Part shown: piece by piece, positions 6,350-37,877 of the stretch
Numbering within the stretch: the first letter of the stretch is position 1
Layout: each line of letters opens with the position of its first letter
Notes under the pieces: model-generated
Databases searched by the model: none
Told to the model about the DNA's origin: nothing
Seen by the model: only the letters and a program-made list of their open reading frames with translations
Assembly (NCBI RefSeq): GCF_001610835.1
Contig: NZ_CP011270.1
Location: 6,032,001 to 6,096,000, forward strand
Source of the DNA: Planctomyces sp. SH-PL14
GTDB lineage: Bacteria > Planctomycetota > Planctomycetia > Planctomycetales > Planctomycetaceae
Direction of reading: 5' to 3'
DNA: 64,000 nt
Made by a program: the position numbers and the translations under genes

Positions 6350-6401
6350 GGGAGGAGTTGTCAGTGGGTCGCTGAGTTGATGGTCGGCCGTTTTCTCCAC
6401 A

Positions 6402-6586
6402 CCCTGAAGGGGTGATACATTCCAGCCTGGGGCAACGCCCCAGGTTGGCGGCTGTCGTCCGTGAGCCCTGAAGGGGCGACACAATGTCGGGGTTGTTGCG
6501 CCCCTTCAGGGCTTGGGATCGGTCGCGCCGATCGTTCCTGGGGCGTTGCCCCAGGCTAGGTTGTTTGACGCCTTCGGCGTCCTTCC
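6402..6586. repeat. repeat C cluster, nested inverted repeats
   Basis: Hairpin CTGGGGC-AAC-GCCCCAG (6427-6443) is matched in inverse orientation by CTGGGGC-GTT-GCCCCAG (6538-6554). Between them lies a perfect 14-bp inverted pair, GCCCTGAAGGGGCG (6465-6478) and its complement (6499-6512). A flanking CCCTGAAGGGG (6402-6412) and a GACGCC-TTC-GGCGTC hairpin follow. The whole cluster fills the gap upstream of the EF-hand operon, so it may lie in that promoter or leader region. Confidence 0.8.
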
Positions 6587-6622
6587 AAGGCAACTGAAAA
6601 CTGACGACTGATCACTGAGAAC

Positions 6623-8914
6623 TCACTGCATCTTTTTCAGCAGCTCCTTGATTTCCTGGATCTCATCCCGCAGTCCCTTGAGTTCCTGGACCGCCTGCTT
6701 CAGTTCCTGGATCTCCATTTCCATCTTCTGGTAGTCGACCGCCGGGACGTTGATAAACGTCGTCGTGGGGACCCCGCCTCCGACCAGGGTGGCGTAGGTG
6801 GAGCTCGCTTCGACCTCGGCGGCCCAGGCGGTCTGACCTTCGGCGTTTCGCAGGCCGACGGCGTCGATCTCGTTCCAGCCCGGCACGGAGACGGAGTCGA
6901 TGTAGACCTTGATCCGCTTCGTCGGGAAGGCGAGCTTCACCGGGAAGACCGAGACGCCGCGGGGCTGGTCGCGGGGGGTGGGGTCTTCCCCTTCCCACGC
7001 GATATGCTCCGTTCCGTCCTCGTCGAAGGCGGTGATCTTGGTGACCGCTCCGGGGTTGTAGGTTTCGTGGATGACGATTTCCGTCGGTTGCTGCAAGGCA
7101 GCGTAGTTGCAGATCAACCACTCTTCCTGCCCGTCGACGGAGGCCGAGGCCCAGGCGGTGATGGCGTCCCCCGCCTGCGGCGTGTTCGGCTCGCCGGCGG
7201 CTTGGGCCGGGCCCCAGGAGGCGAGGTCCGGCGTTGTGGATGAGCCGGCCGGTTCGGCGAAGGTCGTGCTGGCGGTCGCGGCGACGGTCCAGTTGATCGT
7301 CCCGTCGGCGTCGGCGAGTCCGACGGCGTCGATCTCGTTCCAGCCGGGGAAGGCGACGGAGTCGAAGTAGAGCTTGATCCGCTTGACCGGCTTCTCGGGG
7401 TTTACCGGGATGATCGAGATCCCCTTCGGCTGGTCGCGGGGGGTGGGGTCTTCCCCTTCCCAGGCCAGGGTCTCTTCGTTCTTCTCGTCGAGGAACGTGA
7501 TCTTGATCAGCGAGCCGGGGTTATAAGTCTCATGGACCCGGACCGTGGCGGCGGCGACCTCCTTGCCGAAGTCGCAGATCAGCCATTCCTCCTGGCCGTC
7601 CTGCGAGAGCGAGGCCCAGGCGGTGATCTGATCTCCGGCGATCGCGGTATCAGGGGCGCCGATCACCTGCTCGGGGCCCCAGTTCCGTTTGACGATCCGA
7701 GCGAGTTCCGTGAGCCGCTTGTCGATCTCGGTCGTGACCGCGGTGCGGTTGTTGAGGGCGGTCGCCTCCTGGGCGATCTGGCCGAGAGTCTTGTTCCCCG
7801 CGAGGTAGGCTTCGAACTCCCGGGGGGTCGGCTGCCGGCCGGTCAGGTCGATGAGGACCCGCCGGAGCATCGAGGCCTGGACCGACTCGATCGTCGTCGT
7901 GTCGGGAAGGGTCTGGGGCGTTGGCTGGGCGACGACCGCTGTGGGTTGTTCCGCGCCGGCGCCGTCGGGGAGGAGGAGCAGGCACCAGAGGGCGCCGCAG
8001 GGGAGGGCGGCGGCAATCTCGCGAGCGCGGGGACGGAACATCATCGACTCCTCACGGAAAAGGATCCGCCGGATGCGGAGCTGAAGGGGTTTTTGATTGA
8101 GCGAGATCCCGGCCAGGAGTGCCGGCTGGGGCGCGGACGCCAGGGCCAGGAGCGTAGCGGCGTAGTCGTGCGGGTCGTGGGTGACGGCCAGGACGAACTC
8201 GTCGCAGCAGTGCTCGCGGTCTTCGTCGAGCCAACGTGAGACGGTCCAGACGACGGGGTGGAACCAGAAGGCGGTCTCGAGCAGCCGCTGACAGAAGATG
8301 ACGAGGAGATCCTGCCGGCGGATGTGTCCGAGTTCGTGGATCAGGACGTGGTCGATCTGCCGCGGGGACCATTCGGCGGCGGAGCGGGGGAGGAGGATCA
8401 CGGGATGCAGCACGCCGATGGCGCAGGGGACGCGGACGCGGTCACTGAGAGTAACCCGGATCGTGTGCGAGAGCCGGAGAACGTCCTGCCAGTGCCGCGA
8501 GGCTTCGAGGATCGGGGCGGGTGTCTCGCCGGAATCACGGCGGCCCAGTCGGACCGTCCCCCACAGACCGCACAGAAGGGTGCCGGTCGACAGGAGAACG
8601 CCCCCCAGCCAGAGGAGGGAGATCGCGCTGAAGAACGCGGTTCGTCCGGGGGACATGACAGCGGACGGAGACGTCGTGGCTGCCAGCGTGACCGCGACCG
8701 CCGCGGCGCCGATCAGGCTGCCGAACGTCATGAGCGCGATCAGGTATCGCAGCTCCGGTCCGGCGGAGCGCATGGCGACCCGCAGCAGGGCTCCGGCCAC
8801 GCCGACGAGCGTGCTGAGCCAGAGCATGTGCCACAACAGCAGGACAAGCAGCGGTCCTCCGGTGAGGGAAAACCCACCCGGCAAGACCCACGGAAAGAGC
8901 GACATCACTCTCAC
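6623..8914 (-). CDS. M56 (BlaR1-type) metallopeptidase with duplicated discoidin-like domains
   Basis: 763 residues. Four N-terminal membrane segments (about 20-45, 56-80, 92-120 and 300-318) flank an M56 peptidase domain with zinc motif HELGH at 193-197 and the downstream EHCCDE at 234-239. After the last membrane segment comes an IDLTGRQPTPREFEAYLAG stretch (355-373) resembling the start of DUF1549, then two copies of a roughly 120-residue beta-domain (413-537 and 568-688). The copies share DGQEEWLIC, HETYNPG, WEGEDPTPRDQP and PGWNEIDAVGL, like discoidin or coagulation-factor-type carbohydrate-binding modules. The C-terminus (730-763) is a coiled coil. The start is GTG in a GTGA overlap with the blaI-like stop; ATG at 8905 is an alternative. 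Probably a membrane sensor-protease that senses an extracellular ligand and inactivates the BlaI-type repressor. Confidence 0.9.
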   Translation of the reverse strand: MRVMSLFPWVLPGGFSLTGGPLLVLLLWHMLWLSTLVGVAGALLRVAMRSAGPELRYLIALMTFGSLIGAAAVAVTLAATTSPSAVMSPGRTAFFSAISLLWLGGVLLSTGTLLCGLWGTVRLGRRDSGETPAPILEASRHWQDVLRLSHTIRVTLSDRVRVPCAIGVLHPVILLPRSAAEWSPRQIDHVLIHELGHIRRQDLLVIFCQRLLETAFWFHPVVWTVSRWLDEDREHCCDEFVLAVTHDPHDYAATLLALASAPQPALLAGISLNQKPLQLRIRRILFREESMMFRPRAREIAAALPCGALWCLLLLPDGAGAEQPTAVVAQPTPQTLPDTTTIESVQASMLRRVLIDLTGRQPTPREFEAYLAGNKTLGQIAQEATALNNRTAVTTEIDKRLTELARIVKRNWGPEQVIGAPDTAIAGDQITAWASLSQDGQEEWLICDFGKEVAAATVRVHETYNPGSLIKITFLDEKNEETLAWEGEDPTPRDQPKGISIIPVNPEKPVKRIKLYFDSVAFPGWNEIDAVGLADADGTINWTVAATASTTFAEPAGSSTTPDLASWGPAQAAGEPNTPQAGDAITAWASASVDGQEEWLICNYAALQQPTEIVIHETYNPGAVTKITAFDEDGTEHIAWEGEDPTPRDQPRGVSVFPVKLAFPTKRIKVYIDSVSVPGWNEIDAVGLRNAEGQTAWAAEVEASSTYATLVGGGVPTTTFINVPAVDYQKMEMEIQELKQAVQELKGLRDEIQEIKELLKKMQ

Positions 8915-9309
8915 CTGCGCGGTTTGGGGGAGGATGAGCGACCCGAATGCTCATCCAGCAACTTCCTCAACTCTTCCACTTCCGCCGTGCTCAGCGGATG
9001 CGATTCCACCAGATGGGCCACCAGACGTTGGGCCGACCCGTCAAAGACTGTGTTCAGCAATCGGTCGAGCAATCCCTCGCCCGTGCTTCGCCGCGACAGG
9101 ATCGCTTTCCAGCGACGGTCCGCGGTCCGCTCCACCTGACCCTTATCCGACATGATCTTCAGCATCGACGCGACGGTCGTGGCGGCCACCGGCCGGTCCT
9201 GCGACAGCGTTTCGCGAATTTCACTCAGTGAGGCATCCGTCCGGTCCCACAGGATCTGCAGGATCTCCATTTCCCGGTCGGTCGGATGTTGCCCACGGAC
9301 GCGCGCCAT
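8911..9309 (-). CDS. BlaI/MecI/CopY-family transcriptional repressor
   Basis: 132-residue winged-helix repressor. The N-terminal helix-turn-helix reads PTDREMEILQILWDRTDASLSEI, followed by ATTVASMLKIMSDKGQVER and the wing strand RRWKAILSR, the usual BlaI/MecI order and length. The C-terminal dimerisation helix ends in a basic tail. It overlaps the M56 metallopeptidase gene by 4 bp (GTGA), the standard repressor/sensor-protease operon arrangement. A perfect 6-6-6 inverted repeat just upstream (9327-9344) is the likely operator, which implies autoregulation. The effector signal is unknown; planctomycetes have many such pairs with no beta-lactamase link, and none is visible here. Confidence 0.93.
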   Translation of the reverse strand: MARVRGQHPTDREMEILQILWDRTDASLSEIRETLSQDRPVAATTVASMLKIMSDKGQVERTADRRWKAILSRRSTGEGLLDRLLNTVFDGSAQRLVAHLVESHPLSTAEVEELRKLLDEHSGRSSSPKPRR

Positions 9310-9326
9310 CGGTCACCTCGACGGGC

Positions 9327-9344
9327 ATTCTAATACTATAGAAT
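9327..9344 (-). promoter_or_regulatory. putative BlaI-type operator
   Basis: Inverted repeat ATTCTA-ATACTA-TAGAAT, perfect in both arms, 18 bp upstream of the BlaI start and in an AT-rich island within GC-rich DNA. On the minus strand it includes TATAGTAT, which could double as a -10 box. Position and symmetry fit an autoregulatory repressor site; binding is inferred. Confidence 0.55.
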
Positions 9345-9444
9345 TCGAACGCAAGAGCATTCAGTCCCGATTGTAGAGCGTCGAGTGTTGGGCGCGGAGC
9401 GTTTAGAGTAGGGCGCGAGAGGCCGATGACGTCGGGAGAGAGAC

Positions 9445-10992
9445 ATGAGGCGGATGCTGGCGCTGCTGGTGGTGCTGTCGCTCGGGAGTGGTTGGGGGCG
9501 GACGTTGTCAGCGGCCGAGGCTCCGGCGAAGCGGCCGAACATCCTGTTCATCCTCGTCGACGATCAGTCGCCGTTTGACCTGCGGCTCTACAACCCCCGC
9601 TCGACGCTGCGGACGCCGAACATCGACCGCTTGGCCGCCCGCGGCGTGGTGGTCGACGGGGCGTATCACATGGGCTCGTTCAGCGGGGCGGTCTGCATGC
9701 CGTCGCGGCACATGATCATGAGCGGACGGACCGTATGGCATCTGCCTCCCGCGCCGTTCGGGGCGAAGACTTCGCCGTCGCACCTGGAGCTCCAGACGAT
9801 CCCGGCCGTCTTCAACCGCGCGGGCTATGCCACGATGCGGACCTGCAAGCAGGGGAACAGCTACGAGGCGGCCAACCGGCAGTTCACGGTCCGCCACGAT
9901 GAGACGAAGCGGGAAGGGACCGTCGATGGGGGGAGCGCCTGGCACGCGGACCGCGTCCTCGACTACCTCCGCGACCGGCAGGCGGCGAAGGACGAGCGGC
10001 CGTTCCTGATCGACTTCGGCTTCTCCCACCCGCACGACACCCGTGACGGGACGCCTGAGCTCCTGGCCCGCTACGGCGCCGTGAACCACACCGATGAAAA
10101 CGCACCTCCGCCGCTGCACCCGCACCAGCCATCGCTGCCGGTGAATTACCTGCCGCGCCATCCCTTCAACACGACCGACTCCGAAGTCCGGGACGAGATC
10201 GCGGTGAGCGGCGTCTGGCGGCGGCGGGACGAGGCGAGCGTCCGCAACGAGATCGGACGTCAGTACGCCTGCAGCGAGAACATCGACATTCAGATCGGTC
10301 GCGTTCTCGAGCGGCTCCAGGAGATGGGCGAACTCGACAACACCTACATCGTCTACACCGCCGACCACGGGATGTCGATCGGCCGGCATGGGCTGATGGG
10401 GAAGCAGAACCTCTACGAGCACACGTGGCGGGTTCCGTTCGTCGTCGCCGGGCCGGGGATTCCCGCCGGGCGGCGCGTGCAGGGGAATGTCTATCTGCTC
10501 GACGTTCTGGCGACGCTCTGCGACTTCGCGGGAATTGAGCCGCCGGAGACGAATGAAGGGCTGAGTATGCGGCCGGCCCTCGAAGGGCGTCAGCCGACGA
10601 TCCGCGACGTTCTCTACGGGGCCTACAGCGGCGGGGCGAAGCCGGGGATTCGCTCCCTGAAGCACGGCGATTGGAAGCTCATTGAGTATGAAGCCGCCGA
10701 TCGGGGCGTTCGGGAGACACAACTCTTTCAGCTTGAGTCGAATCCCGAAGAACTGCTCCCGCAGCACCGGGAGGCGGAGACCGTTCGGCTGGTCGGCTCG
10801 AGCCCGGAACCGCAGCAGACGAACTTGGCCGGCGATCCGCAGCATGCGGCGAAGCTGGAAGAAATGCGGGGATTGCTGCTGGCCGAGATGCGGCGGCTCA
10901 ACGACCCGTATCGGTTTTCGAATCAGCCGGGGGATGATCTGCCGCCGGTCCCCGGGCCGCCGATGAGACGCGCGGCGGGCAAAGCGCGATGA
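9445..10992 (+). CDS. Cys-type sulfatase, secreted
   Basis: 515-residue sulfatase with N-terminal signal peptide (MRRMLALLVVLSLGSG). Metal-binding start PNILFILVDDQSP (31-43) and the formylglycine motif C84-M-P-S-R88 within FSGAVCMPSRHMIMSGR. TADHGMSIGRHGLMGKQNLYEHTWRVP, split here over residues about 310-335, is the second metal/substrate region typical of choline-sulfatase/iduronate-sulfatase-like enzymes. It would hydrolyse sulfate esters, probably from polysaccharides, after Cys84 is converted by a formylglycine-generating enzyme encoded elsewhere. It is divergent from the BlaI gene with 135 bp between. Substrate cannot be read from the sequence. Downstream it faces a palindromic B element. 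Confidence 0.93.
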   Translation: MRRMLALLVVLSLGSGWGRTLSAAEAPAKRPNILFILVDDQSPFDLRLYNPRSTLRTPNIDRLAARGVVVDGAYHMGSFSGAVCMPSRHMIMSGRTVWHLPPAPFGAKTSPSHLELQTIPAVFNRAGYATMRTCKQGNSYEAANRQFTVRHDETKREGTVDGGSAWHADRVLDYLRDRQAAKDERPFLIDFGFSHPHDTRDGTPELLARYGAVNHTDENAPPPLHPHQPSLPVNYLPRHPFNTTDSEVRDEIAVSGVWRRRDEASVRNEIGRQYACSENIDIQIGRVLERLQEMGELDNTYIVYTADHGMSIGRHGLMGKQNLYEHTWRVPFVVAGPGIPAGRRVQGNVYLLDVLATLCDFAGIEPPETNEGLSMRPALEGRQPTIRDVLYGAYSGGAKPGIRSLKHGDWKLIEYEAADRGVRETQLFQLESNPEELLPQHREAETVRLVGSSPEPQQTNLAGDPQHAAKLEEMRGLLLAEMRRLNDPYRFSNQPGDDLPPVPGPPMRRAAGKAR

Positions 10993-22764: not shown

Positions 22765-25700
22765 ATGACCAGCGCCCCCACCGTCTCCGGTCCCCAGGCA
22801 GACGACACGCTCTACATTCACCCCAGCGACTTTGCTTATCGCGGCGAGCTCTACAGCTTTGAGCACCTGATGGCCCACGCCGTCGACCTGGCGGGGTCGC
22901 TCAAGACCGACGCTTCGGTCCAGGATGCTCCCGAGTTCCGCTCCCGCTTCTCCGAGAATGCCGAGTTCCTCAAGGAAGCGAACCGGACTCTCGCCCGCGG
23001 CGCGCGCGATGGCGACCCGGTCACCCCCGACACCCAGTGGCTGCTCGACAACTTCTACGTCGTCGAAGAGCAGCTCCGGCAGATCCAGGAGGACCTTCCC
23101 GCCTCCTACTTCCGCGAACTCCCCAAGCTCTCCAGCGGCGAGCCGCGGATCCATCGCCTGGCCCTCGAACTGGTGACGCACACCGACAGCGTTCTCGACC
23201 AGGGGACGATCGTCGAGTTCATCCGCCGCTTCCAGGCGGTCGCCCCGCTCTCGATCGGCGAGGTGTGGGCCATTCCGATCATGTTCCGGCTGGTGCTCGT
23301 CGAGAACCTGCGGCGGCTCTCCGCCCAGATGCTGAAGATGAAACGCTGCCGCGAGCTGGCGCACCGGCTGGCGGACGAGTGGCAGGGGGGAGACCGCCTG
23401 CCGCCGGCGCTCGACACCGACCGCCGCAACCCGCAGCTCATCCTGCAGGTCCTGGGGGTGGTCCGCGAGTGCGCGCCCGACCAGATCGTCCGGCTGGCGA
23501 CGCTCGAACAGCTCGTCCATCACCGCTTCCCCGGGACGCACGACCTCCTCCGCGAAGAGCATCAGCGGCAGGCGGTCAATCAGGTCTCGGTCGGCAACGT
23601 CATCACCAGCATGCGGCTGTTGTCCGCGACCGACTGGGAGACGTTCTTCGAGGAGACGAGCCTCGCCGAGCAGATCCTGCGGCGCGATCCGGCGGGGGTT
23701 TATCCCCGGATGGATTTCGAAAGCCGCGACCGCTACCGGCACATCGTCGAGCGGCTGGCGAAGCGGTCCGGACGGACCGATGCCGAAGTCGCCGAGATGG
23801 TCGTCCGGCGGTCCGCCTCGATCGTCGGAGCGGCGTCGTCGGTCGGCGTCACGCCGGTCGGAGCGTCGCCCGCTGTTGTCCATGACGATCCCCGCTCGCA
23901 CGTCGGCTACTGGCTGGTCGGCGAAGGACAGGATGCGTTCGTGGAGCAGGTCGGCTACGCGCGGAAGTTCGGCGAACGGATCCTCCGGACCTTCGCCCGG
24001 AAGCCGTCGGCCACCTTCTTTACCTCCGTCATCGGGATCACGGTCCTCGGCACGCTGCTGACCGGGATCGTCGCCGCCAAACTCCTCGGCGGACCGTGGA
24101 TCGCGCTGCTGCTGGCGATCGTCTCGATCCTCCCGTGGTCGGAAGTCGCGGTGCTGGCGACGAACCTGTTCGTCACGCACGTCATGCCGCCGCGGGTCCT
24201 GCCGAAGCTCGAGCTCAAGGACGGGGTCCCGTCCGAGTACCGGACGATCGTCGTCATCCCCTCGATGCTGAGCGGAGCGGGGGAGATCGACTCGCTCGTC
24301 AGCCGGCTCGAGATGCACGCCATCGCCAACCCCGAGCCCAACGTCACCTATGCGCTGCTGACCGACTTCACGGACGCCGATGCCGAAAGCCTCCCCCGCG
24401 ATGCCGACCTGGTCCGCCGGGCGGTCGAGGGGATCCGGACGCTCAATGAGCGGTACGGCCAGGACGGACGGGGACCGTTCTACCTGTTCCACCGCAGCCG
24501 CCGCTGGAACCCCGTCGCCAAGGTCTGGATGGGCTGGGAGCGGAAGCGCGGCAAGCTGATGGAGTTCAACGCCCTCCTCCGCGGCGCGAAGGAGACCACG
24601 TACACGACGATCGAAGGGGATCTCCCCGCGCTTCTCGGTCCGAACGGCGTCTCCGACATCCAGTTCGTGATTACGCTGGACGCCGATACGCAGCTGCCGT
24701 TCGGCACCGCGCGGAAGATGATCGGGACGCTGGCCCACATCCTGAACCGCCCGCAGGTCAGCCCGGACGGGAGCTGCCTCAAGCACGGCTACACGATCCT
24801 TCAGCCCCGCGTCAGCGTTCATCTCGCGGACGGCAACCGCTCGTGGTACTCGCGGATCTTCGCCCACGGCAAGGGGCTCGACCCCTATGCCTCGGCCGCC
24901 TCGGACGTCTATCAAGATCTCTTCGGCGAAGGGAGTTTCACGGGGAAGGGGATCTACGACCTCAACGCCTTTGAGACCGTCCTCCACGGGGCGTTCCCCG
25001 AGAACACGATTCTCAGCCACGACCTGATCGAAGGCTGTCACGTCCGGGTCGGGCTCGTCTCGGACATTGAGCTGATCGACGGCTTCCCGATGCGGTACGA
25101 CGCCGACCTGCGGCGGCAGCACCGCTGGGTCCGCGGCGACTGGCAGATCGCGCCGTGGCTCTTCGGCCGCGTGCCGTCGCTCACCGGCGACCGCGCGAAC
25201 CGGCTGTCGCTCCTCTCGAAGTGGAAGATCTTCGACAACCTCCGTCGCAGCGTCGTGGCGCCGCTCGTGATGGCGCTGCTGATCCTCGGCTGGTTCCTCG
25301 CTCCGCAGGGGGCGTGGTGGTGGACCGGGATCGGGGTGCTGACGATCGGGTTCCCGCTCTTCGGCGGTCTTGCGACGTCGCTCTGGGGACTGTTCCGCAC
25401 GAGCGAGCCGCTCTCCCATCTCCGGTCCTCGGGGCTCGACCTGGGACGGTCGTTCGTCCGGACCTATATCCACATGAGCCTGCTGCCGCACCGCGCGCTG
25501 CTCATGGTCGACGCCATCGCCCGCACGATCCACCGCGTGACGCGGTCCCGCGCCCGGATGCTCGAATGGGAGACCGCGGCGGCGGTCGACCAGCGGCTCG
25601 GACAGAGCCGCAAGCCGATCTACGTGAAGCTCTGGCCGCTCCCGGCCCTGGCGATCGCGCTCGCCTTCCTGCTGCCGACCGCGGCGCTCGTCCCCGCGGC

Positions 25701-28700
25701 GATCTGGCTCGTGGCGTGGCTGACCGGGCCGCTCGTGGCGCATGTCATCAGCCAGCCGCTCCACCGGAAGGCTCCCGAGTTCACCGCGGAGCAGAAGCTC
25801 TGGCTGCGGCACATCGCCCGCAAGACCTGGTTCTGGTTCGAGTGCATGGTCGGACCGCGGACGAACTGGCTCCCGCCCGACAACTTCCAGGAGTACCCGC
25901 AGGCGAAGCTCGCCGAGCGGATCTCGCCGACGAACGAAGGCCTGTACCTCACGTCGGGGCTCGTCGCCCGGGACTTCGGCTTCCTCGGCCTGCACGGGCT
26001 CGTCGAAGGGTGGGAGAAGAACCTCGCCACGTGGTCGAACCTCGAGAAGTTCCACGGCCACTTCTACAACTGGTACGAGACCAGCAACGTCCAGCCGCTC
26101 CGGCCGCGATACATCTCGACGGTCGACAGCGGGAACCTGGCCGCCTGCTTCCTCGTCATCAAGACCGGGACCGCCGACCTCCTCCAGGCTCCGGTCTTCA
26201 GCCCGGCCCAGTGGGACGGGCTGAAGGACACGGCGTTCCTGGTGGCGGACAGCATCCGGCACCTGCGGCGGTCGCTCGGGAAGGCGCATCCGCCGGCGTT
26301 CGACCGGATGGCGAACGCCTTCGAAGAGTTCCAGGGGACCTTCCAGACCTGCCCCGTCTCGCTCGTCGAGTGGAATACGACGGTCAAGGGGTGGAAGACG
26401 CACCGGGCGGCCCTCAACGTCGCCAACCTGGCGCTGCTGAGCGACGAGTCATTCCCGGCCGACGACCTGCGGACCGCGGTCGACATCCTGATCCAGCATC
26501 TCGACGGCCTCGAAGAGGACCGCCTGACGCTGCTGGCCTGGGCCGATGCGCTCCCCGCCGCCCTGCCGCTGCACGACGGTCCCGAAGTGGAGGCGGCGGC
26601 CGATGCCGTCACCCGCTGCTGGCTGCGGCTGCGGAAGGAACTGAGCCAGGCGAACTCGCCGCAGCGGCTCGCCGCGATCGCCGGCGTCACGGCGCCGCTC
26701 GTCTCGGAGCTGGAGAGCCTCACGTCGGCCCAGCCGCAGGAAACCCGGGCCGCGCTCCACACGCAGTTTGAGACCCTGAAGACCGCTCTCGAGCGGACCT
26801 CGCAGGGGGCGGCCGCGCTCGTCGCCCGCTATGACGCCGTCGCGGCGCACTGCGAGTCGCTCGCGCTCGGGATGCAGTTCGAGTTCCTCTACAACCCGCA
26901 GCGGCGGCTGTTCGCCATCGGCTACAACCTCGAGGACGACCGCCTCGACCGCTCGCACTACGACATGCTCTGCTCGGAGGCCCGCCTCACCAGCTTCGTC
27001 GCCATCGCCAAGGGGGACGTTCCGGCCCGGCACTGGTTCCAGCTCGGACGCTCCGCCACCTACTCCGCCGGACAGCTCGGGCTGCTCTCGTGGGGGGGGA
27101 CGATGTTCGAGTTCCTCATGCCGGTCCTGTTCCAGAAGTGGTACCCCGGCTCCCTCATCGCCCAGGCGTGCCAGACCGCGGTCGCCCGGCAGCGGCAGTA
27201 CGGGAACAGCCTCGGCATTCCGTGGGGAGTGTCGGAGTCCGCCTTCGCGTCGCTCGCCACGAACCTCGACTACCAGTACCAGTCGTTCGGCGTCCCGGGG
27301 CTCGGCCTCAAGCGGGGGCTCAGCGACGACCGGGTCGTCGCGCCCTACGCCACGCTGCTCGCGCTGCCGATCGCGCCGCAGGAGGCGTACGCCAACCTGC
27401 ACCGCCTGGAGGCCGAAGGGGGCCTGGGGGTGTGGGGCTTCTATGACGCTATCGAGTTCACGCCGGAGCGGGTTCCGGTCAACCGCCGCTCCGTCCCGGT
27501 CCGCTGCTACATGGCGCACCACCAGGGGATGGGACTGAACGCCCTGGCGAACGTCCTGATGGACAGCTCGCTCCCGCGGCGGTTCCACGCCCATCCGCTG
27601 ATCCGCGCCAGCGAGCTGCTGCTCCAGGAGAAGGTTCCGGACGGTCCGCCGATCATCATGCCGCACGAGGACGAGACCGAAGTGGTCCACGTCGCTCCGG
27701 CGAGCGTCGAGATCGTGGCCCGCCGGATGGGGGGCTGGGACTCGGCCCGGCCGCGGACGCACCTGCTCTCGAACGGCCGGTACTCCGTCATGGTGACCGA
27801 CACCGGCGGCGGATCGAGCACGATGGGGGACGTGGCGGTGACCCGCTTCCGCCCCGACAACACCCGCGACCAGTGGGGACAGTTCCTCTATCTGCGGGAC
27901 CTCGCGACGAACCGCGTCTGGTCCCCGACGTACCAGCCGACCTGCGCGACGCCGGACGCGTACGAGATCACCTACGCCATCGACAAGGCGGAGTTCCGCC
28001 GCCTCGACGGCGAGCTGGAGACGCTCTACGAAGTCACGGTCTGCCCGGAGAACCAGGTCGAGGTCCGGCAGCTGCGGCTCGTGAACCACGGCTCCGAGGA
28101 GCGGGTGATCGAGATCACGAGCTACGCCGAGATCGCGCTCTGCCCCCAGGCGGCGGACCTGGCGCATCCCGCCTTCCAGAAGCTGTTCGTCGAGACCGAA
28201 TACGTTCCCGGCGAGACCGCGCTCATCGCCCGCCGCCGTCCCCGCGACTTGAAGCAGCAGCCGCTGTGGGGGGTGCATGTCCTGTCGTGTGCGGACGCTC
28301 ACGGCCAGGACATCCAGTTCGAGACGAGCCGGGCGAACTTCCTCGGCCGGGGCTGCACGCCCCGCGCGCCGCAGGCGCTCGACCCCGGAACGCGGCTCAG
28401 CGGGACGGTCGGGATCGTTCTCGATCCGATCTTCTCGTTGCGGTGCAAGGTCCGGGTTCCGGCCGAGAGCAGCGTCGTCGTCGCCTTCACGACCGGCGTG
28501 GCCCAGACGCGGGATGAGGCGCTCCGCGTCGCCGACCAGTACCACGACCTCCGCGGCGTGCAGCGGGCCTTTGAGCTCGCGTGGGCGTACAACCAGGTCA
28601 ACCTGCACCACCTCCAGATGACGGCGGCCCGCGCCCAGCGGTTCCAGCGGCTGGCGTCGTCGCTGATCTTCCCCGATCCGATCCTCCGCGGACCGCAGCA

Positions 28701-31700
28701 GTCGATCCGCCTGAACCGGCAGGGGCAGAACGGCCTGTGGCGGTTCGGGATCTCCGGCGACCGGACGATCCTCCTCGTTCGCGTGAGCGAGCAGGACCAG
28801 GTCGAGTTCGTGCAGGAGCTGGCCCAGGGGCGGCGGTACTGGGAGTCGCTCGGACTCCATATCGACCTCGTGGTCCTCAACGAGCTGCCCGGCAGCTACT
28901 TCGACGAGCTTCAGGAACAGCTGCAGCGGCTGGCGGGGGACTCGCATCGTCCCGGCGGCGGAACGGCGGTCTTTACGATCCGCGCTGCGCAGATCACGGC
29001 GGAGGACCGCTACCTCCTCGAATCGGCGGCGGCGATCGTGGTCGATGCCCGCCGCGGGTGGGCCAACTTCACCCCCGCTCCCGCTCCCGCGGCCGCGCCG
29101 AAGCCGGCCGAGAAGACCGAGGGAGCGAAGCCGGCCGTCAAGGGACCGCATCGCAACCTTGCGATCGGCTCGCAGTCGCCGATCAAGGAGTTCGCTCCGC
29201 ACGAGCGGGCCGCCACCACGGGCCGCGGATCGGAATCCGGTTCTCGCTCGGAAGCCCGCGAGTCCCTCCAGTTCTGGAACGGGACGGGGGGCTTCACGGG
29301 GGATGGCCGGGAGTACCGGATGTTCCTGGAAAGCCGGGCGGTCCCGCCGATGCCGTGGTCGAACGTCATCGCCAACCCGCGGTTCGGCTGCCTCGTGACC
29401 GAGTCCGGCGGCGGCTACACGTGGGCGGAGAACAGCCGCGAGAACAAGCTCACGGCGTGGTCGAACGACCCGGTCATCGATCCGCCGGCCGAGCAGATCT
29501 TCATCCGCGACGAGAAGTCGGGCGACCTGTGGACCGCCGTTCCCGGCCCGCGCTCCGCGCACCGGTCGGTCGAGGTCCATCACGGACAGGGGTATTCGCG
29601 GTTCCTGCACTCAGCGCAGGGGCTGGAGCATGAGCTGCGGATCTCGATCGCGCCCGACGCGCCGGTGAAGTTCAGCTGCCTCAAGCTCCGGAACCGGTCC
29701 GATCTTCCCCGCGAGCTGTCGGTCACCTGTTACGCCGAGTTCGTCCTCGGGGTGACGCGGGACCAGTCGCGGATGTTCCTCGTGACGGACGTCGATCCCG
29801 AGACCCGGGCGCTCCTCGTCCGCAACTCGTACCATCCGGACTACCCGGATCAGGTGGCGTTCCTGCAGGTCCTCTCGCTCAACCGCTCGGTGACCGGCGA
29901 CCGCGAGGAGTTCTGGGGCCGCAATGCGCATCCGCAGCGTCCGGCGGCGCTCCTCCATCCGGGCGAACTGGCAAGGAAGATCGGACCTGGCTTCGATCCC
30001 TGCGGGGCGATCCAGACGACCGTTTCGATCCCGGCCGGGGAAGAGGTGGAGGTCGTGTTCCTGCTCGGCAGCGGTCAGGACCGGGCGGAAGCGCAGTCGC
30101 TGCTGCACCGGTTCAACACGCCGCACGCCGTTCACTCCGCGATGCAGCAGACCCGCGAGGTGTGGACCGACGTGACCGAGACGGTGCAGGTCAAGACGCC
30201 GAGCCCGGCGCTCGATCTCCTGGTCAATCACTGGCTGGTCTATCAGGTCCTGAGCTGCCGGGTCTGGGGGCGGTCCGCCTTCTACCAGTCCGGCGGGGCG
30301 TACGGGTTCCGCGATCAGCTCCAGGACGTAATGGCGGCGGTCTACAGCCGGCCGGGCGTGGCGCGGGAGCAGATCCTGCGGGCGGCCGCGCGGCAGTTCG
30401 TCGAAGGGGACGTGCAGCACTGGTGGCATCCGCCGGGGGGACGGGGGACGCGGACGCGGTTCTCCGACGACCTGTTGTGGCTGCCGCTCGTCGTCGCGCA
30501 CTACGTCGGTGTCACGGGGGACCGGACGGTTCTCGACGAGATCGTTCCGTTCATCCGTTCGCCGCTCCTCCGGCCGGACGAGCACGAGCGGTATGAGCAG
30601 CCTTCGCCCGCGGGGGAAGAGTCCTCGGTCTACGACCACTGCCTGCGGACGCTCGACCGCGGCTTCACGAGCGGCCCGCACGGCCTACCGCTCATGGGGT
30701 GCGGCGACTGGAACGACGGGATGAACAAGGTGGGCGAAGGGGGGCAGGGGGAGAGTGTGTGGGTGGGGTGGTTCCTGCTCGTGCTGCTCGACCGCTTCCT
30801 TCCGGTGATGGAGGAGCGTGGCGATCACGAGCTGGCGCAGCAGTACCGGCAGAAGACGGTGGCGCTGCGGCAGTCTCTGGAGAGCCAGGCGTGGGATGGC
30901 GAGTGGTATCGCCGGGCGTTCTTCGACGACGGGACGCCGCTGGGCTCTCGGGAGAACGACGAGTGCCAGATCGATTCGCTGGCCCAGACGTGGGCGGTGT
31001 TCGCCGAGGCCGATCCGGAGCGGACGGACCAGGCGCTGTCGGCGGTGCTGGAACGTCTTGTCGATGAGCGGCTGAAGCTGGTGAAGCTGTTTGATCCGCC
31101 GTTCGACAAGACGGAGCTCGATCCTGGCTATATCAAGGGGTATCTGCCGGGGGTGCGGGAGAACGGCGGCCAGTACACGCACGCGGTGCTGTGGCTGATC
31201 CAGGCGCTCGTCCAGAAGGGGCGGGGGGCGGAGGCGATGCGGATCTTTGATCTCATCAATCCCGTTCGCCACGCGGCGAGTCCCGAGGGGGTCCGGACGT
31301 ATCAGGTGGAGCCTTACGTAGTGGCGGCGGATGTGTATTCCGTCGATCCGCATGGCGGGCGCGGGGGGTGGACGTGGTACACGGGGTCCGCGGCGTGGAC
31401 GTATCGGGCGGCGCTGGAGTCGATTCTGGGGCTGCGGGTGCGGGAGGGGACGGTTTCGTTCGAGCCTTGTGTTCCGCCGGAGTGGGGTGAGTTTGAGGTT
31501 CGGATGCGGCGGGGGACGACGACCTGGGTGTTCAAGGTGGTCCCTGGTCATGATGAGGAGTCGGCGGAGGCGTTTGATCCGGCGAGCAATCGGTTCACGT
31601 TGGTGGAGGATGGTCAGGAGCACCGGATTACGGTGCATGTGCCGAATGGGCGTGGGGGGGATGTGCGTCGGGACGGGGAGGAGTCCGCGGATGCGGTGAG

Positions 31701-31722
31701 AGCGGAGGAGCGCGGAAGTTAG
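22765..31722 (+). CDS. ndvB: cyclic beta-1,2-glucan synthase (NdvB/ChvB family)
   Basis: 2985 residues, the usual size class for cyclic glucan synthases (about 2800). N-terminal cytoplasmic region, then membrane helices near 418-470. The GT84 glycosyltransferase domain has FVITLDADTQLP near 634 and LSHDLIEGCHVRVG near 751, with more membrane helices at about 830-880 and 958-990. The glycoamylase/GH189 cyclising domain follows (WFWFECMVGPRTNWLPP near 1019, YDMLCSEARLTSFVAIAKGD near 1395, MAHHQGMGLNALANVL near 1582). Two beta-sandwich domains (near 1670 and 2203) are separated by an Ala/Pro/Lys linker (about 2103-2160). The C-terminal GH94 phosphorylase-like (alpha/alpha)6 domain holds GCGDWNDGMN near 2646. 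It would use UDP-glucose to build, cyclise and trim periplasmic beta-1,2-glucan. It stands alone, with no exporter gene (ndvA) nearby. Confidence 0.94.
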   Translation: MTSAPTVSGPQADDTLYIHPSDFAYRGELYSFEHLMAHAVDLAGSLKTDASVQDAPEFRSRFSENAEFLKEANRTLARGARDGDPVTPDTQWLLDNFYVVEEQLRQIQEDLPASYFRELPKLSSGEPRIHRLALELVTHTDSVLDQGTIVEFIRRFQAVAPLSIGEVWAIPIMFRLVLVENLRRLSAQMLKMKRCRELAHRLADEWQGGDRLPPALDTDRRNPQLILQVLGVVRECAPDQIVRLATLEQLVHHRFPGTHDLLREEHQRQAVNQVSVGNVITSMRLLSATDWETFFEETSLAEQILRRDPAGVYPRMDFESRDRYRHIVERLAKRSGRTDAEVAEMVVRRSASIVGAASSVGVTPVGASPAVVHDDPRSHVGYWLVGEGQDAFVEQVGYARKFGERILRTFARKPSATFFTSVIGITVLGTLLTGIVAAKLLGGPWIALLLAIVSILPWSEVAVLATNLFVTHVMPPRVLPKLELKDGVPSEYRTIVVIPSMLSGAGEIDSLVSRLEMHAIANPEPNVTYALLTDFTDADAESLPRDADLVRRAVEGIRTLNERYGQDGRGPFYLFHRSRRWNPVAKVWMGWERKRGKLMEFNALLRGAKETTYTTIEGDLPALLGPNGVSDIQFVITLDADTQLPFGTARKMIGTLAHILNRPQVSPDGSCLKHGYTILQPRVSVHLADGNRSWYSRIFAHGKGLDPYASAASDVYQDLFGEGSFTGKGIYDLNAFETVLHGAFPENTILSHDLIEGCHVRVGLVSDIELIDGFPMRYDADLRRQHRWVRGDWQIAPWLFGRVPSLTGDRANRLSLLSKWKIFDNLRRSVVAPLVMALLILGWFLAPQGAWWWTGIGVLTIGFPLFGGLATSLWGLFRTSEPLSHLRSSGLDLGRSFVRTYIHMSLLPHRALLMVDAIARTIHRVTRSRARMLEWETAAAVDQRLGQSRKPIYVKLWPLPALAIALAFLLPTAALVPAAIWLVAWLTGPLVAHVISQPLHRKAPEFTAEQKLWLRHIARKTWFWFECMVGPRTNWLPPDNFQEYPQAKLAERISPTNEGLYLTSGLVARDFGFLGLHGLVEGWEKNLATWSNLEKFHGHFYNWYETSNVQPLRPRYISTVDSGNLAACFLVIKTGTADLLQAPVFSPAQWDGLKDTAFLVADSIRHLRRSLGKAHPPAFDRMANAFEEFQGTFQTCPVSLVEWNTTVKGWKTHRAALNVANLALLSDESFPADDLRTAVDILIQHLDGLEEDRLTLLAWADALPAALPLHDGPEVEAAADAVTRCWLRLRKELSQANSPQRLAAIAGVTAPLVSELESLTSAQPQETRAALHTQFETLKTALERTSQGAAALVARYDAVAAHCESLALGMQFEFLYNPQRRLFAIGYNLEDDRLDRSHYDMLCSEARLTSFVAIAKGDVPARHWFQLGRSATYSAGQLGLLSWGGTMFEFLMPVLFQKWYPGSLIAQACQTAVARQRQYGNSLGIPWGVSESAFASLATNLDYQYQSFGVPGLGLKRGLSDDRVVAPYATLLALPIAPQEAYANLHRLEAEGGLGVWGFYDAIEFTPERVPVNRRSVPVRCYMAHHQGMGLNALANVLMDSSLPRRFHAHPLIRASELLLQEKVPDGPPIIMPHEDETEVVHVAPASVEIVARRMGGWDSARPRTHLLSNGRYSVMVTDTGGGSSTMGDVAVTRFRPDNTRDQWGQFLYLRDLATNRVWSPTYQPTCATPDAYEITYAIDKAEFRRLDGELETLYEVTVCPENQVEVRQLRLVNHGSEERVIEITSYAEIALCPQAADLAHPAFQKLFVETEYVPGETALIARRRPRDLKQQPLWGVHVLSCADAHGQDIQFETSRANFLGRGCTPRAPQALDPGTRLSGTVGIVLDPIFSLRCKVRVPAESSVVVAFTTGVAQTRDEALRVADQYHDLRGVQRAFELAWAYNQVNLHHLQMTAARAQRFQRLASSLIFPDPILRGPQQSIRLNRQGQNGLWRFGISGDRTILLVRVSEQDQVEFVQELAQGRRYWESLGLHIDLVVLNELPGSYFDELQEQLQRLAGDSHRPGGGTAVFTIRAAQITAEDRYLLESAAAIVVDARRGWANFTPAPAPAAAPKPAEKTEGAKPAVKGPHRNLAIGSQSPIKEFAPHERAATTGRGSESGSRSEARESLQFWNGTGGFTGDGREYRMFLESRAVPPMPWSNVIANPRFGCLVTESGGGYTWAENSRENKLTAWSNDPVIDPPAEQIFIRDEKSGDLWTAVPGPRSAHRSVEVHHGQGYSRFLHSAQGLEHELRISIAPDAPVKFSCLKLRNRSDLPRELSVTCYAEFVLGVTRDQSRMFLVTDVDPETRALLVRNSYHPDYPDQVAFLQVLSLNRSVTGDREEFWGRNAHPQRPAALLHPGELARKIGPGFDPCGAIQTTVSIPAGEEVEVVFLLGSGQDRAEAQSLLHRFNTPHAVHSAMQQTREVWTDVTETVQVKTPSPALDLLVNHWLVYQVLSCRVWGRSAFYQSGGAYGFRDQLQDVMAAVYSRPGVAREQILRAAARQFVEGDVQHWWHPPGGRGTRTRFSDDLLWLPLVVAHYVGVTGDRTVLDEIVPFIRSPLLRPDEHERYEQPSPAGEESSVYDHCLRTLDRGFTSGPHGLPLMGCGDWNDGMNKVGEGGQGESVWVGWFLLVLLDRFLPVMEERGDHELAQQYRQKTVALRQSLESQAWDGEWYRRAFFDDGTPLGSRENDECQIDSLAQTWAVFAEADPERTDQALSAVLERLVDERLKLVKLFDPPFDKTELDPGYIKGYLPGVRENGGQYTHAVLWLIQALVQKGRGAEAMRIFDLINPVRHAASPEGVRTYQVEPYVVAADVYSVDPHGGRGGWTWYTGSAAWTYRAALESILGLRVREGTVSFEPCVPPEWGEFEVRMRRGTTTWVFKVVPGHDEESAEAFDPASNRFTLVEDGQEHRITVHVPNGRGGDVRRDGEESADAVRAEERGS

Positions 31723-34262: not shown

Positions 34263-37200
34263 ATGACGACCAGAGCGGGCCAGCGCCCCCGCTCCGCCGG
34301 TGACCATCTCATGCCGATGACGTTCGACGAGTTCTGTACCGAACTGATCGAAAGCGGACTGCTTTCGAAGGAAGACGTCGCGCGCACCTGGGAGTCCTCC
34401 GGAGCCGCCGACGCCGAGACGATGGCCCGCGTGCTCGTGAAGGCCAAACTTCTCACCGCCTACCAGGCCCAGCAGGCCTACGCCCGCCGCGGCAAGTCCC
34501 TGATCCTGGGGAACTACCTCATCCTGGACAAGATCGGCCAAGGAGGGATGGGGATGGTCCTCAAGGCCCGCCACCGCCGCATGGACCGAATCGTCGCCCT
34601 CAAGGTCCTCTCCCCCAACCTGGTGAAGCTCCCCGAACTCCTCTCACGCTTCCACCGCGAGGTTAAAGCGGCGGCCCGGCTCGAACACCCCAACATCGTC
34701 ACCGCCTACGACGCCGACGAGTCCCGCGGGACGCACTTCTTCGTCATGCAGTTTGTCGACGGCAGCGACCTGCAGTCCCTCATCAAGAGGAAGGGGGCCG
34801 TCTCCGTTGAAGAGGGAATGAACTGCATCCTCCAGGCGGCCCGAGGCCTGGAGTTCGCGCACAAACAGGGAGTCATCCACCGCGACATCAAGCCCGCCAA
34901 CCTGCTCCTCGACCACAACGGGACCGTCAAGATCCTCGACATGGGGCTGGCCCGCATCGAAGGGGACGTCGGGACGCAGGCGGAACTCACGAGCACCGGC
35001 GCCGTGATGGGGACCGTGGACTACATGGCCCCCGAACAGGCCCTCAGCACCAAGAACGCCGACGCCCGCAGCGACATCTACTCCCTGGGTGTGACGCTCT
35101 GGTTCCTGCTGACCGCCCGGCCGCTCTTCGGCGGGGACTCGGTCATGGCCCGGCTGCTGGCCCACCGCGAGTCCCCCATCCCCTCGCTCCGCGGTTCCCG
35201 CGGAGACGTCCCGCCGGCGCTCGACGCGGTCTTCCAGCGGATGGTTGCCAAGAAGGCGACGGACCGCTTCCAGACGATGACCGAAGTCATGACGGCGCTC
35301 GAACGGGCCCGCGAGAAGCCGAATGAGGTGGCCAGCGGGAATCCGTCCGACATCGTCCCGATCCTGACGGTCCCGCCATCGGAGAGCGAGAAGTTCAACG
35401 ACTTCCTGGGGATCTTCGACGGCGGGACCGACTCGCCGCCGACCGCTCAGGGGACCGCCGGTGCGACGAAGGCGGCCGCGGGGCGGGGAACCGGTAAGAA
35501 ACGGGCGGCGGCATTCGACGTCACCTCGATGGCGGGGCAGGCGACCGACACCGACCCGACGACGCTCACCCGGATGGCACCGGCCGGAGCCACGGGACGG
35601 TCGAGCACCGCCCTCGATCCGTGGCGGCAGAACCGGGCGATCCAGGCGGTCTCCGCCGTGGCCGCGCTCGGACTCATCGTCGGTTTTGTCCTGTGGGTCC
35701 GCGGTCTCAGTTCGCGGGGACCAGCGGCGCCTGGCAACGGCGCGAACGTCGCCTCGGCTGGGGCGACGCCGAGCGGCGCAGTGACCGTTCCCGCCGGCGC
35801 GGGAGCGAACGATGGCTCATTGGCGGCCGGTACGCCCTCGACCGCCCCCTCCGCGGGAAGCGGCACGCCGGGGGCTGACTTCTCCCTGGCGTTCGACGGC
35901 CGCAGCCACGTGGCCCTGCCGGACTTCGACGTGACGAGCACCGGCTCCCTCACGATCGAGCTGACGGTGCAGGTCGACGCTCCGCGAAACGCCGACTCGC
36001 AGGGGAACCGGATGGGGTCGATCCTCTCGAACAAGCAGGGGCCCGGCCTGGGGTTCGTCGCCAAAGAGCAGGGGCTGATGTTCGAGTGCGGCAACCCGAT
36101 GGGGCAGATCGTCGCCACCGACATCCTGACCTACCCGGGGCTCCCCTGGCAGCGCGGGACGCTGCGCGTCGCGGCGGTCGTCGACGGCGCGGCAAAGGTC
36201 ATCCGGCTGTTCGTCGACGGCAAGCTCGTGGAGTCGAAGCCGCTCGCCGCTCCGCTGGCCAAAGCCAGGTTCCCGTTCATGATCGGGGCCGATCCCAACG
36301 ACAGCGGCAACGCCGGCCTCCAGCTCGTGGGGCGGGTCGACGAGATCCGGATCTCCAACACGGCCCGCTATCGCGAGGACTATCCGGTCGTGAATCGGTT
36401 CGAGCCGGACTTTGCGACGCTGGCGCTCTATCACTGCGACGACGGGACTGGGACCCAGCTTCAGGACTCGTCCGGGCGGGGGAGGCATGGCCGTCTCTTC
36501 GGCGCGATGTGGAACACGGGGATGTCGACCGCGGCCGCCTCGCCCTCGCCGCCGCCCTCCTCCGCGGTCGTTGCGACGCCGGCTCCAGCCACCCAGACGC
36601 CGCCTCTCGGCGCCGGCTGGAAGGAGCTGTTCGATGGCCGGTCGGTGTCCGGCTGGCGGGGAGACACCTCGCTCCTCAAGGTCGAGAACGGCGTGCTGGT
36701 CAACGAGAACCGCCGCGGGGTCGTCATGGTTCCCGGGCAGTTCGACGACTTCGAGGTGTCGATCGACTTCCGGCTGTCGTCGGGGGGGAACAGCGGCCTG
36801 GGGATCCGTTATGGCGGGACGGGCGACCCGGCCTTCACCGGGCTCGAGGTCCAGATGCTGGACGACGAGTCGTACAAGGCGATCACGCCCGATCAGCGGT
36901 GCGGCTCGATCTTCCGTCTCGCCGCGGCGCGGACGGGGTTCTATCGCCGCTGGCCGGAGTGGAACACGATGGCGGTGTCGGCCATCCGCGACGATCTCAC
37001 GGTGCGGATGAACGGGACGGTCGTCGTCCAGACGACCCGTACGGCGCTGCAGGGGACGAATCCCCGTCATGCCGGGCTGGCGGCGGTGTCGGGGGCGATC
37101 TGTCTGTGTCCGATCGCGGGGCGAAGCGAGTACCGGAACTTCCGCGTGCGGCCGGCCGATTCTCAGGCCGCTGCTCCCGGGGGCTCGCTGCCGCGGCTGG

Positions 37201-37877
37201 CGGCGGGGGACTATGCCCTCGAGTTTGACGGGGCGACGTCGAGCGTGTGGATCCCGGCGCTTCGCTATCAGGGCGCGACGCCGCTCACCCTGGAAGCTCG
37301 GGTGCGGCCTCTTCCCTTTGCTCCCCTTCCGGGCGAGCCCAAGTACACGGTGGTCGGCGACATCCAGAAGGGCGGGGTCGGCCTGCAGACCTGGCGGGGA
37401 ACGGGTTGGACCTTCATGGTGAACGACGGCAACCCGGGCAGTTCGCTCGGGTACCGCCATGTCCACTCGGACGTGAAGCCGGAGGATCACCGGACGGTCC
37501 ATCTTGCCGGGACGCTGGAGGGGGGACAGTTCCGGCTGTATGTCGACGGGAAGCTGCAGGCGCAGCGCGGGTCGCTGGGAGGTCGACTTATCCCCTCTCC
37601 CTTTCCGATGGTCATCGGTGCCGATCCGTTCGATGACCGTTCCGCTCAACACTTCTTTTGCGGGCTGATCGACGAGGTCCGGTTTTCGAAGGTGGTTCGT
37701 TACCGGGGGGACTTTGAGCCGCTTCCTCCTGACGGGCGGTTTGCTGCGGATTCGGACACGCTGGCGCTTTATCACTTTGATGAGGGGACGGGGGCGGTGG
37801 CGATGGATTCGTCGGGGAATGGTCTGCACGGGCAGGTCCGTTCCGCGACATGGAGGAATGCGGCGGTCATGCGCTGA
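34263..37877 (+). CDS. Ser/Thr protein kinase fused to LamG-DUF1080-LamG
   Basis: 1204 residues; ATG 34263 has GGGAG 4-8 nt upstream. Residues 19-80 form the planctomycete kinase N-terminal helical domain. The kinase domain (85-345) has GQGGMG (92-97), ALK with Lys114, HRDIKPAN (206-213) and [10 protein letters not shown]; the usual DFG is DMG (226-228), a substitution frequent in this family. A single membrane helix lies near 463-483 ([14 protein letters not shown]) after a Pro/Ala/Thr-rich stretch. Outside are a LamG-like concanavalin domain (about 540-750), a DUF1080/3-keto-disaccharide hydrolase-like domain (783-966, [17 protein letters not shown]) and a second LamG domain (980-1200). It is probably a transmembrane kinase that senses sugars or surface ligands. 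Its stop codon abuts repeat A. Confidence 0.93.

Follow-up and report, generated by a model that had tools for sequence, protein, structure and literature searches.

Rhizobia, Agrobacterium and Brucella are the best-known sources of cyclic beta-1,2-glucans. A gene for a cyclic glucan synthase (CGS) in a planctomycete raises the questions whether the enzyme is complete, where it came from and how its product would leave the cell. They are addressed here for a stretch of 64,000 nucleotides (G000:C1:6032001-6096000; hereafter the window), which had been ascribed to a planctomycete in a sequence-only reading. This assignment agrees with the position of the genome in the same family as G223, whose own CGS is located on the Schlesneria contig L003.

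The synthase gene and its catalytic residues

The CGS gene is a complete ORF on the forward strand of the window (22765..31722) that starts with ATG, encodes 2985 aa and is identified by PDB and Pfam matches. A search of the genome, which is a single contig of 8.44 Mb, found no second copy. The third-position GC content of the frame is 0.91, and two long ORFs on the opposite strand, of 1270 and 1053 aa, are read as high-GC mirror frames. A scan for promoters and terminators returned signals that are no commoner than in shuffles. Further downstream, the window encodes a fusion of a protein kinase with a 3-keto-disaccharide hydrolase domain and with LamG-like domains (34263-37877, +).

The phmmer search against the PDB matched the NdvB/ChvB structures of A. 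tumefaciens (8rf0/8rf9) over residues 57-1169 and 1355-2914 with 1976 bits, and the GH189 domain 8wy1, whose residue numbering fits that of T. italicus, with 425 bits. Pfam detected the GH94 supersandwich in two stretches (best at 2195-2435), the GH94 catalytic domain at 2467-2889 and PF10091 at 1398-1610, i.e. over the GH189 region. A GT84 model is absent among the Pfam matches, so that this assignment rests on the PDB alignment; no NCBIfam model matches the protein. In terms of coordinates (all +), the GT84 region that served as input of the GT84 tree comprises residues 480-835 (24202..25269; alignment to 8rf9/8rf0), the cyclising GH189 domain residues 1008-1626 (25786..27642; alignment to 8wy1), and the second GH94 supersandwich together with the GH94 catalytic domain residues 2195-2889 (29347..31431; PF06165, PF17167). 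The hydropathy scan located five hydrophobic segments flanking GT84 (residues 416-443, 445-466, 826-850, 951-972 and 974-992; 24010..25740, +) versus six expected, the Agrobacterium enzyme having six transmembrane helices (PMC10901819, excerpt).

Published sites were taken from excerpts of PMC10901819, PMC10834661 and PMC11842490; their numbering was moved by hand on alignments, and the corresponding positions were then read in an alignment that comprises 103 CGS. This alignment admits only frames of more than 2550 aa that reach both ends, and five duplicate rows were removed; reduced members of the family thus lie outside the residue count. All 16 checked catalytic, priming or active-site residues are present in the window CGS, and 15 of these sites are invariant in 103/103 aligned sequences; the remaining one, the UDP-binding aspartate, is found in 102 of 103 (exception L042). 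The conserved GT84 sites include D534, D639, D641, D753 and R787. Alignment identifies Asp753 (25021..25023, +) with the GT84 catalytic base Asp739, and the invariant Tyr708 (24886..24888, +) with the priming Tyr694 of the Agrobacterium enzyme. In the GH189 domain, Glu1405 (26977..26979, +) is the equivalent of the acid/base (T. italicus E1356, Agrobacterium E1300) and Glu1491 (27235..27237, +) that of the nucleophile (E1442 and E1386, respectively), whereas Asp2651 (30715..30717, +) corresponds to the GH94 catalytic acid Asp2528.

The low identity to enzymes already tested leaves some room for a synthase that is inactive or makes linear beta-1,2-glucan or another product. We regard this alternative as improbable, given that the priming tyrosine and the catalytic residues of all three domains are retained, including both GH189 glutamates, which mutation has shown to be needed for cyclisation in T. 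italicus (PMC10834661, excerpt). The sequence-only reading had described a complete synthase composed of GT84, GH189 and GH94, and had named the loss of catalytic residues as evidence to the contrary. The structural and Pfam matches confirm its description, and none of the residues checked has been lost. We conclude that the window encodes an ordinary, intact and apparently working cyclic glucan synthase; the activity of the enzyme and the linkage and ring size of its product are what we infer from the protein sequence.

The same reading had drawn attention to a repetitive Ala/Pro/Lys linker at about residues 2103-2160 (29071..29244, +). Stretch-length comparison shows that the segment 2085-2185 comprises 100 residues in the window CGS versus a median of 69 in the 103 homologues (range 67-119), which documents a real insert of about 30 residues; the Ala/Pro/Lys richness, in turn, is confined to the first third of the proposed span. 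The long linker is a clade trait, with 100 residues in G203, 93 in L003 and G185, and 85 in G024 and G063, but it is not strongly common to G008 and G092 (74 each) and long stretches also occur outside the clade in L009 (119), L151 (85) and L034 (80). Another variable stretch is located between the two conserved GH189 halves (window residues 1165-1355), where the CGS alignment ranges from 0 residues in G039 to 216 in G217.

Distribution and origin of the synthase

The scan of the genome collection detected at least 586 stretches encoding CGS relatives, the best 80 loci of which were retained. At least 13 named phyla are represented among the alignment rows, many of which are metagenome bins, and this breadth makes it unlikely that the function of CGS is chiefly host interaction. 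Within the class of the window, a GH189/CGS match is present in 84 of the 297 sampled genomes and in 50 of 155 genera. The frame that contains the GH189 match reaches 2600 aa in 61 of these 84 genomes; further weak matches in frames of about 540-780 aa resemble separate GH189-like genes. The apparent two-gene CGS of G036 (frames of 1202 and 1722 aa) was dismissed as an assembly break, since both contigs end there. Frames of about 2,100 aa in G034:C68 and G038:C2 (L099, L100) resemble CGS in its GH94 part alone, with 34-36% identity, and the rhizobial-order genome G496 (Chelativorans) harbors two CGS that are placed apart in the tree (contigs C98 and C111).

Phylogenies were calculated for GT84 (103 rows) and with FastTree for the full-length protein (102 rows, without the long-branched Pantoea row L049). 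Both trees recover the same nearest rows, namely G203, G024, G063, G185 and Schlesneria L003, followed by G008. In the full-length tree, the addition of G092 results in an eight-row planctomycete clade that includes the window and is supported by a value of 100; 12 more planctomycete rows join with a support of 99. The GT84 phylogeny, which had been suggested as a check, likewise groups the window with planctomycete rows, but its support is weaker than that of the full-length tree and the larger groupings are weakly supported (73-94). The planctomycete rows require five to six label changes on the trees, thus indicating that planctomycetes hold several deep CGS lineages.

The patchy occurrence of CGS in the class could be taken as a sign that the gene was recently transferred from an alphaproteobacterium, rhizobial or not. 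Such a transfer is supported by neither tree and is extremely improbable in the light of the nested planctomycete clades, while the rhizobial rows are placed elsewhere. The earlier claim that finding the gene in a planctomycete poses the question of its origin is weakened by this placement, by the spread over at least 13 phyla and by the several deep planctomycete lineages. A planctomycete CGS from the Isosphaeraceae was, moreover, already listed in print in 2017 (PMC5352709, excerpt), in whose text the term "ABC transporter" is absent. What is new and useful is a candidate exporter of the rings.

Search for a ChvA/NdvA exporter

According to the sequence-only reading, no exporter is adjacent to the CGS gene. 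This observation holds locally: ten frames neighbouring the CGS were scanned and contained no transporter, and none of the genome's 63 ChvA-profile matches is located in the window. The proposed genome search for ndvA/chvA was negative as well, with no match in the genome over the curated ChvA cut-off (best 315 versus 585 bits). The best-scoring match, G000:C1:1133050, was rejected as a glucan exporter, because it represents a cyanophycin-associated ABC transporter (NF052233, 1108 bits versus a cut-off of 880) with a DUF1854 gene after it. The ChvA cut-off was passed in none of 20 CGS genomes, and the search of 199 genomes of the phylum at E 1e-120 returned neither ChvA nor any control match at that threshold. 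The model itself works, as documented by scores over cut-off in seven of 61 genomes of the rhizobial order, six of which 61 have a CGS match. Even there the pairing is loose, because only two of the seven (G532 and G536) have CGS; a third CGS genome of this order, G543, reaches a ChvA score of 529.

A candidate planctomycete exporter family

The local view is nevertheless incomplete, because the genome encodes a representative of an exporter family whose genes adjoin CGS in many relatives. This candidate glucan exporter is an ABC half-transporter of 641 aa (G000:C1:2926277-2928199, -). It groups with nine CGS-linked exporters with a support of 100 and shares 57% identity with the copy of G272. 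No model was over cut-off among the 25 best NCBIfam models listed, and the scores for ChvA/NdvA are far below the thresholds (218.5 versus 585.4 bits for TIGR01192; 262 versus 733 for NF010178). The distance of 3.1 Mb between exporter and CGS in the window genome, where the two genes are not adjacent, was counted against the assignment. The frames scanned near the exporter encode a primase/Toprim protein, sigma-70, a sigma-54 activator, RNA methyltransferases, T2SS-F and EPSP synthase, with no glucan gene among them.

Full-length ABC exporters were sought in the flanks of the 103 CGS, which differ greatly in length, and were found at 13 loci, ten of which belong to the 20-row clade of the window; G024 and G008 add two linked exporters, resulting in 12 of 20 rows. 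Nine of these 12 exporters represent the candidate family and are located downstream of the CGS on the same strand. The exporter of G008 also belongs to this family, but is divergently oriented, 423 bp from the CGS by match coordinates. The spacer that separates CGS from exporter was also inspected for a small conserved gene; close relatives show some nucleotide similarity there, with no convincing shared ORF. Outside planctomycetes, the best match to the family scored 222 bits in 20 CGS genomes from other phyla plus two rhizobial ones, which is the level of any ABC exporter.

The family was counted across the class at E 1e-90, and the class searches, whose totals and handles coincide, were accordingly taken to cover one set of 297 genomes. 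It is present in 44 of the 297 genomes and in 23 of 155 genera, and all 23 are among the 50 genera with a GH189/CGS match. Such a match was found in 43 of the 44 exporter-family genomes compared with 84 of 297 overall (Fisher p 4e-27, with genomes treated as independent, so that their shared ancestry is ignored in this and the following p value). The single exception, G130, is an assembly of 89% completeness whose genus-mates have both genes. With CGS counted only as frames of at least 2600 aa, the association comprises 29 of 44 exporter genomes (p 5e-13, genomes again treated as independent); four of the other 15 were opened, two showing frame breaks in their CGS (G054, L192; G153, L193) and two a reduced CGS. 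Exporter and GH189 match are at most 12 kb apart in 24 of the 43 genomes; both genes run in the same direction in 22 of these, the exporter is downstream in 22, and 21 combine the two features; six further pairs are more widely spaced on one contig and 13 lie on different contigs.

The association could alternatively reflect lineage co-inheritance, with the glucan leaving the cell via, for example, an ABC-DUF1854 fusion or a general MsbA-like exporter and the CGS being as described. This scenario draws on the absence of the family at E 1e-90 from 41 of the 84 CGS genomes, including G203, G223 and G092, whose CGS are close to that of the window, although broken copies in fragmented assemblies could escape this search. 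It also draws on fusions adjoining CGS, which are located downstream in G024 and G063 and on the opposite strand in G253 from another lineage. We consider it possible, if rather unlikely, because just one of the 44 family genomes, which span 23 genera, is devoid of a GH189/CGS match, and because of the adjacency in 24 of 43 genomes; a control exporter of the same genome coincides with a GH189/CGS match in only 17 of 36 (at least about 45% identity, among the matches listed). DUF1854 as such was discarded as the key, since its association with CGS is weak (38/87 for any DUF1854 and 13/23 for frames of at least 920 aa, the ABC-DUF1854 fusion being confirmed by Pfam for three of the latter). The fusions beside CGS in three planctomycetes have 940-967 aa (L123 15834-18659, +; L116 3748-6648, -; L164 2082-4901, -), and no mention of DUF1854 was found in the literature searched, which mostly did not extend to subscription journals.

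We propose from these comparisons that the planctomycete family represents a non-ChvA exporter of cyclic glucans that is not universal. For the organism under study, the preferred reading is a working CGS whose glucan is quite likely exported by the unlinked ABC half-transporter G000:C1:2926277-2928199. Homology, residue conservation, phylogeny and the genomic association of exporter and CGS underlie this reading, in which the transporter would carry the glucan. No paper on a planctomycete glucan exporter was found by title or abstract opening in a search with subscription journals mostly outside its reach. It is the pairing with the exporter that deserves to be followed up, while the CGS itself is an ordinary member of a widespread family. 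A dedicated non-ChvA family would, if true, offer a concrete starting point for asking how planctomycetes export the rings, and for what purpose.

Reduced synthases

Two reduced synthases, each known from a single assembly, accompany exporters in other planctomycetes. The first one is encoded in G209 (L190, G209:C96:18001-34000) by a frame of 1,419 aa (6023-10279, -) that ends soon after GH189, with 14/14 GT84/GH189 sites present and no GH94 domain after the frame. The first ATG of its exporter (4132-6009, -) is located 22 bases past the stop codon of the synthase. The second one, from G167 (L191, 5096-12529, -), comprises 2,478 aa and has kept the GH94 supersandwich, but the catalytic domain is missing; its exporter lies upstream of the CGS. 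In A. tumefaciens, the removal of the GH94 half abolished function, whereas little changed upon point mutation of the GH94 acid (PMC10901819, excerpt), so that much could be learned from a GH94-less form that works. The same source, as excerpted, contains the idea that length control by GH94 mainly serves the transporter, which could be tested with a natural GH94-less variant. A bolder scenario, on which our judgement is evenly balanced, is that planctomycetes recruited their own non-ChvA exporter family, planctomycete-only in our searches, which became fixed beside CGS, and that at least one lineage, G209, shed the entire GH94 half, so that the exporter or GH189 may set the ring size.

Proposed mechanism and comparison with known systems

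Following the published mechanism, GT84 would glucosylate Tyr708 from UDP-glucose and extend the chain, GH94 would trim it, and GH189 would close the ring by retaining transglycosylation. The ring would be made on the cytoplasmic side and require an exporter, for which the candidate half-transporter, below the ChvA/NdvA cut-offs and of the same domain order as these proteins, may be responsible.

One close reference is Agrobacterium Cgs/ChvB (8rf0, 8rf9; PMC10901819, excerpt), which has the same domain order as the window CGS and whose residues D527, R586, D624, D626, Y694, D739, R773, R776, D1104, E1300, E1386, D2393 and D2528 are all matched. Differences are the linker, about 30 residues longer in the window, and the location of the CGS, which is not beside its candidate exporter. 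Between the GH189 halves, the window CGS has 190 residues versus 88-101 in five of six rhizobial rows, with 172 in L155. The T. italicus GH189 domain (8wy1; PMC10834661, excerpt) shares the nucleophile, the acid/base, the neighbouring Glu and the His pair with the window. Its CGS belongs to a Bacillota lineage, and in its close relatives L052 and L074 the CGS is directly followed by an ABC ATPase-like frame rather than a full exporter. In these two Bacillota, the frame starts 57-118 bases past the CGS (L052 16583-17638, +; L074 16668-17678, +). The candidate exporter differs from ChvA/NdvA (TIGR01192, NF010178) by scores below the cut-offs and by a clade separate from three ChvA in the tree, but it shares with them the architecture of an ABC half-transporter and, among relatives, the pairing with CGS.
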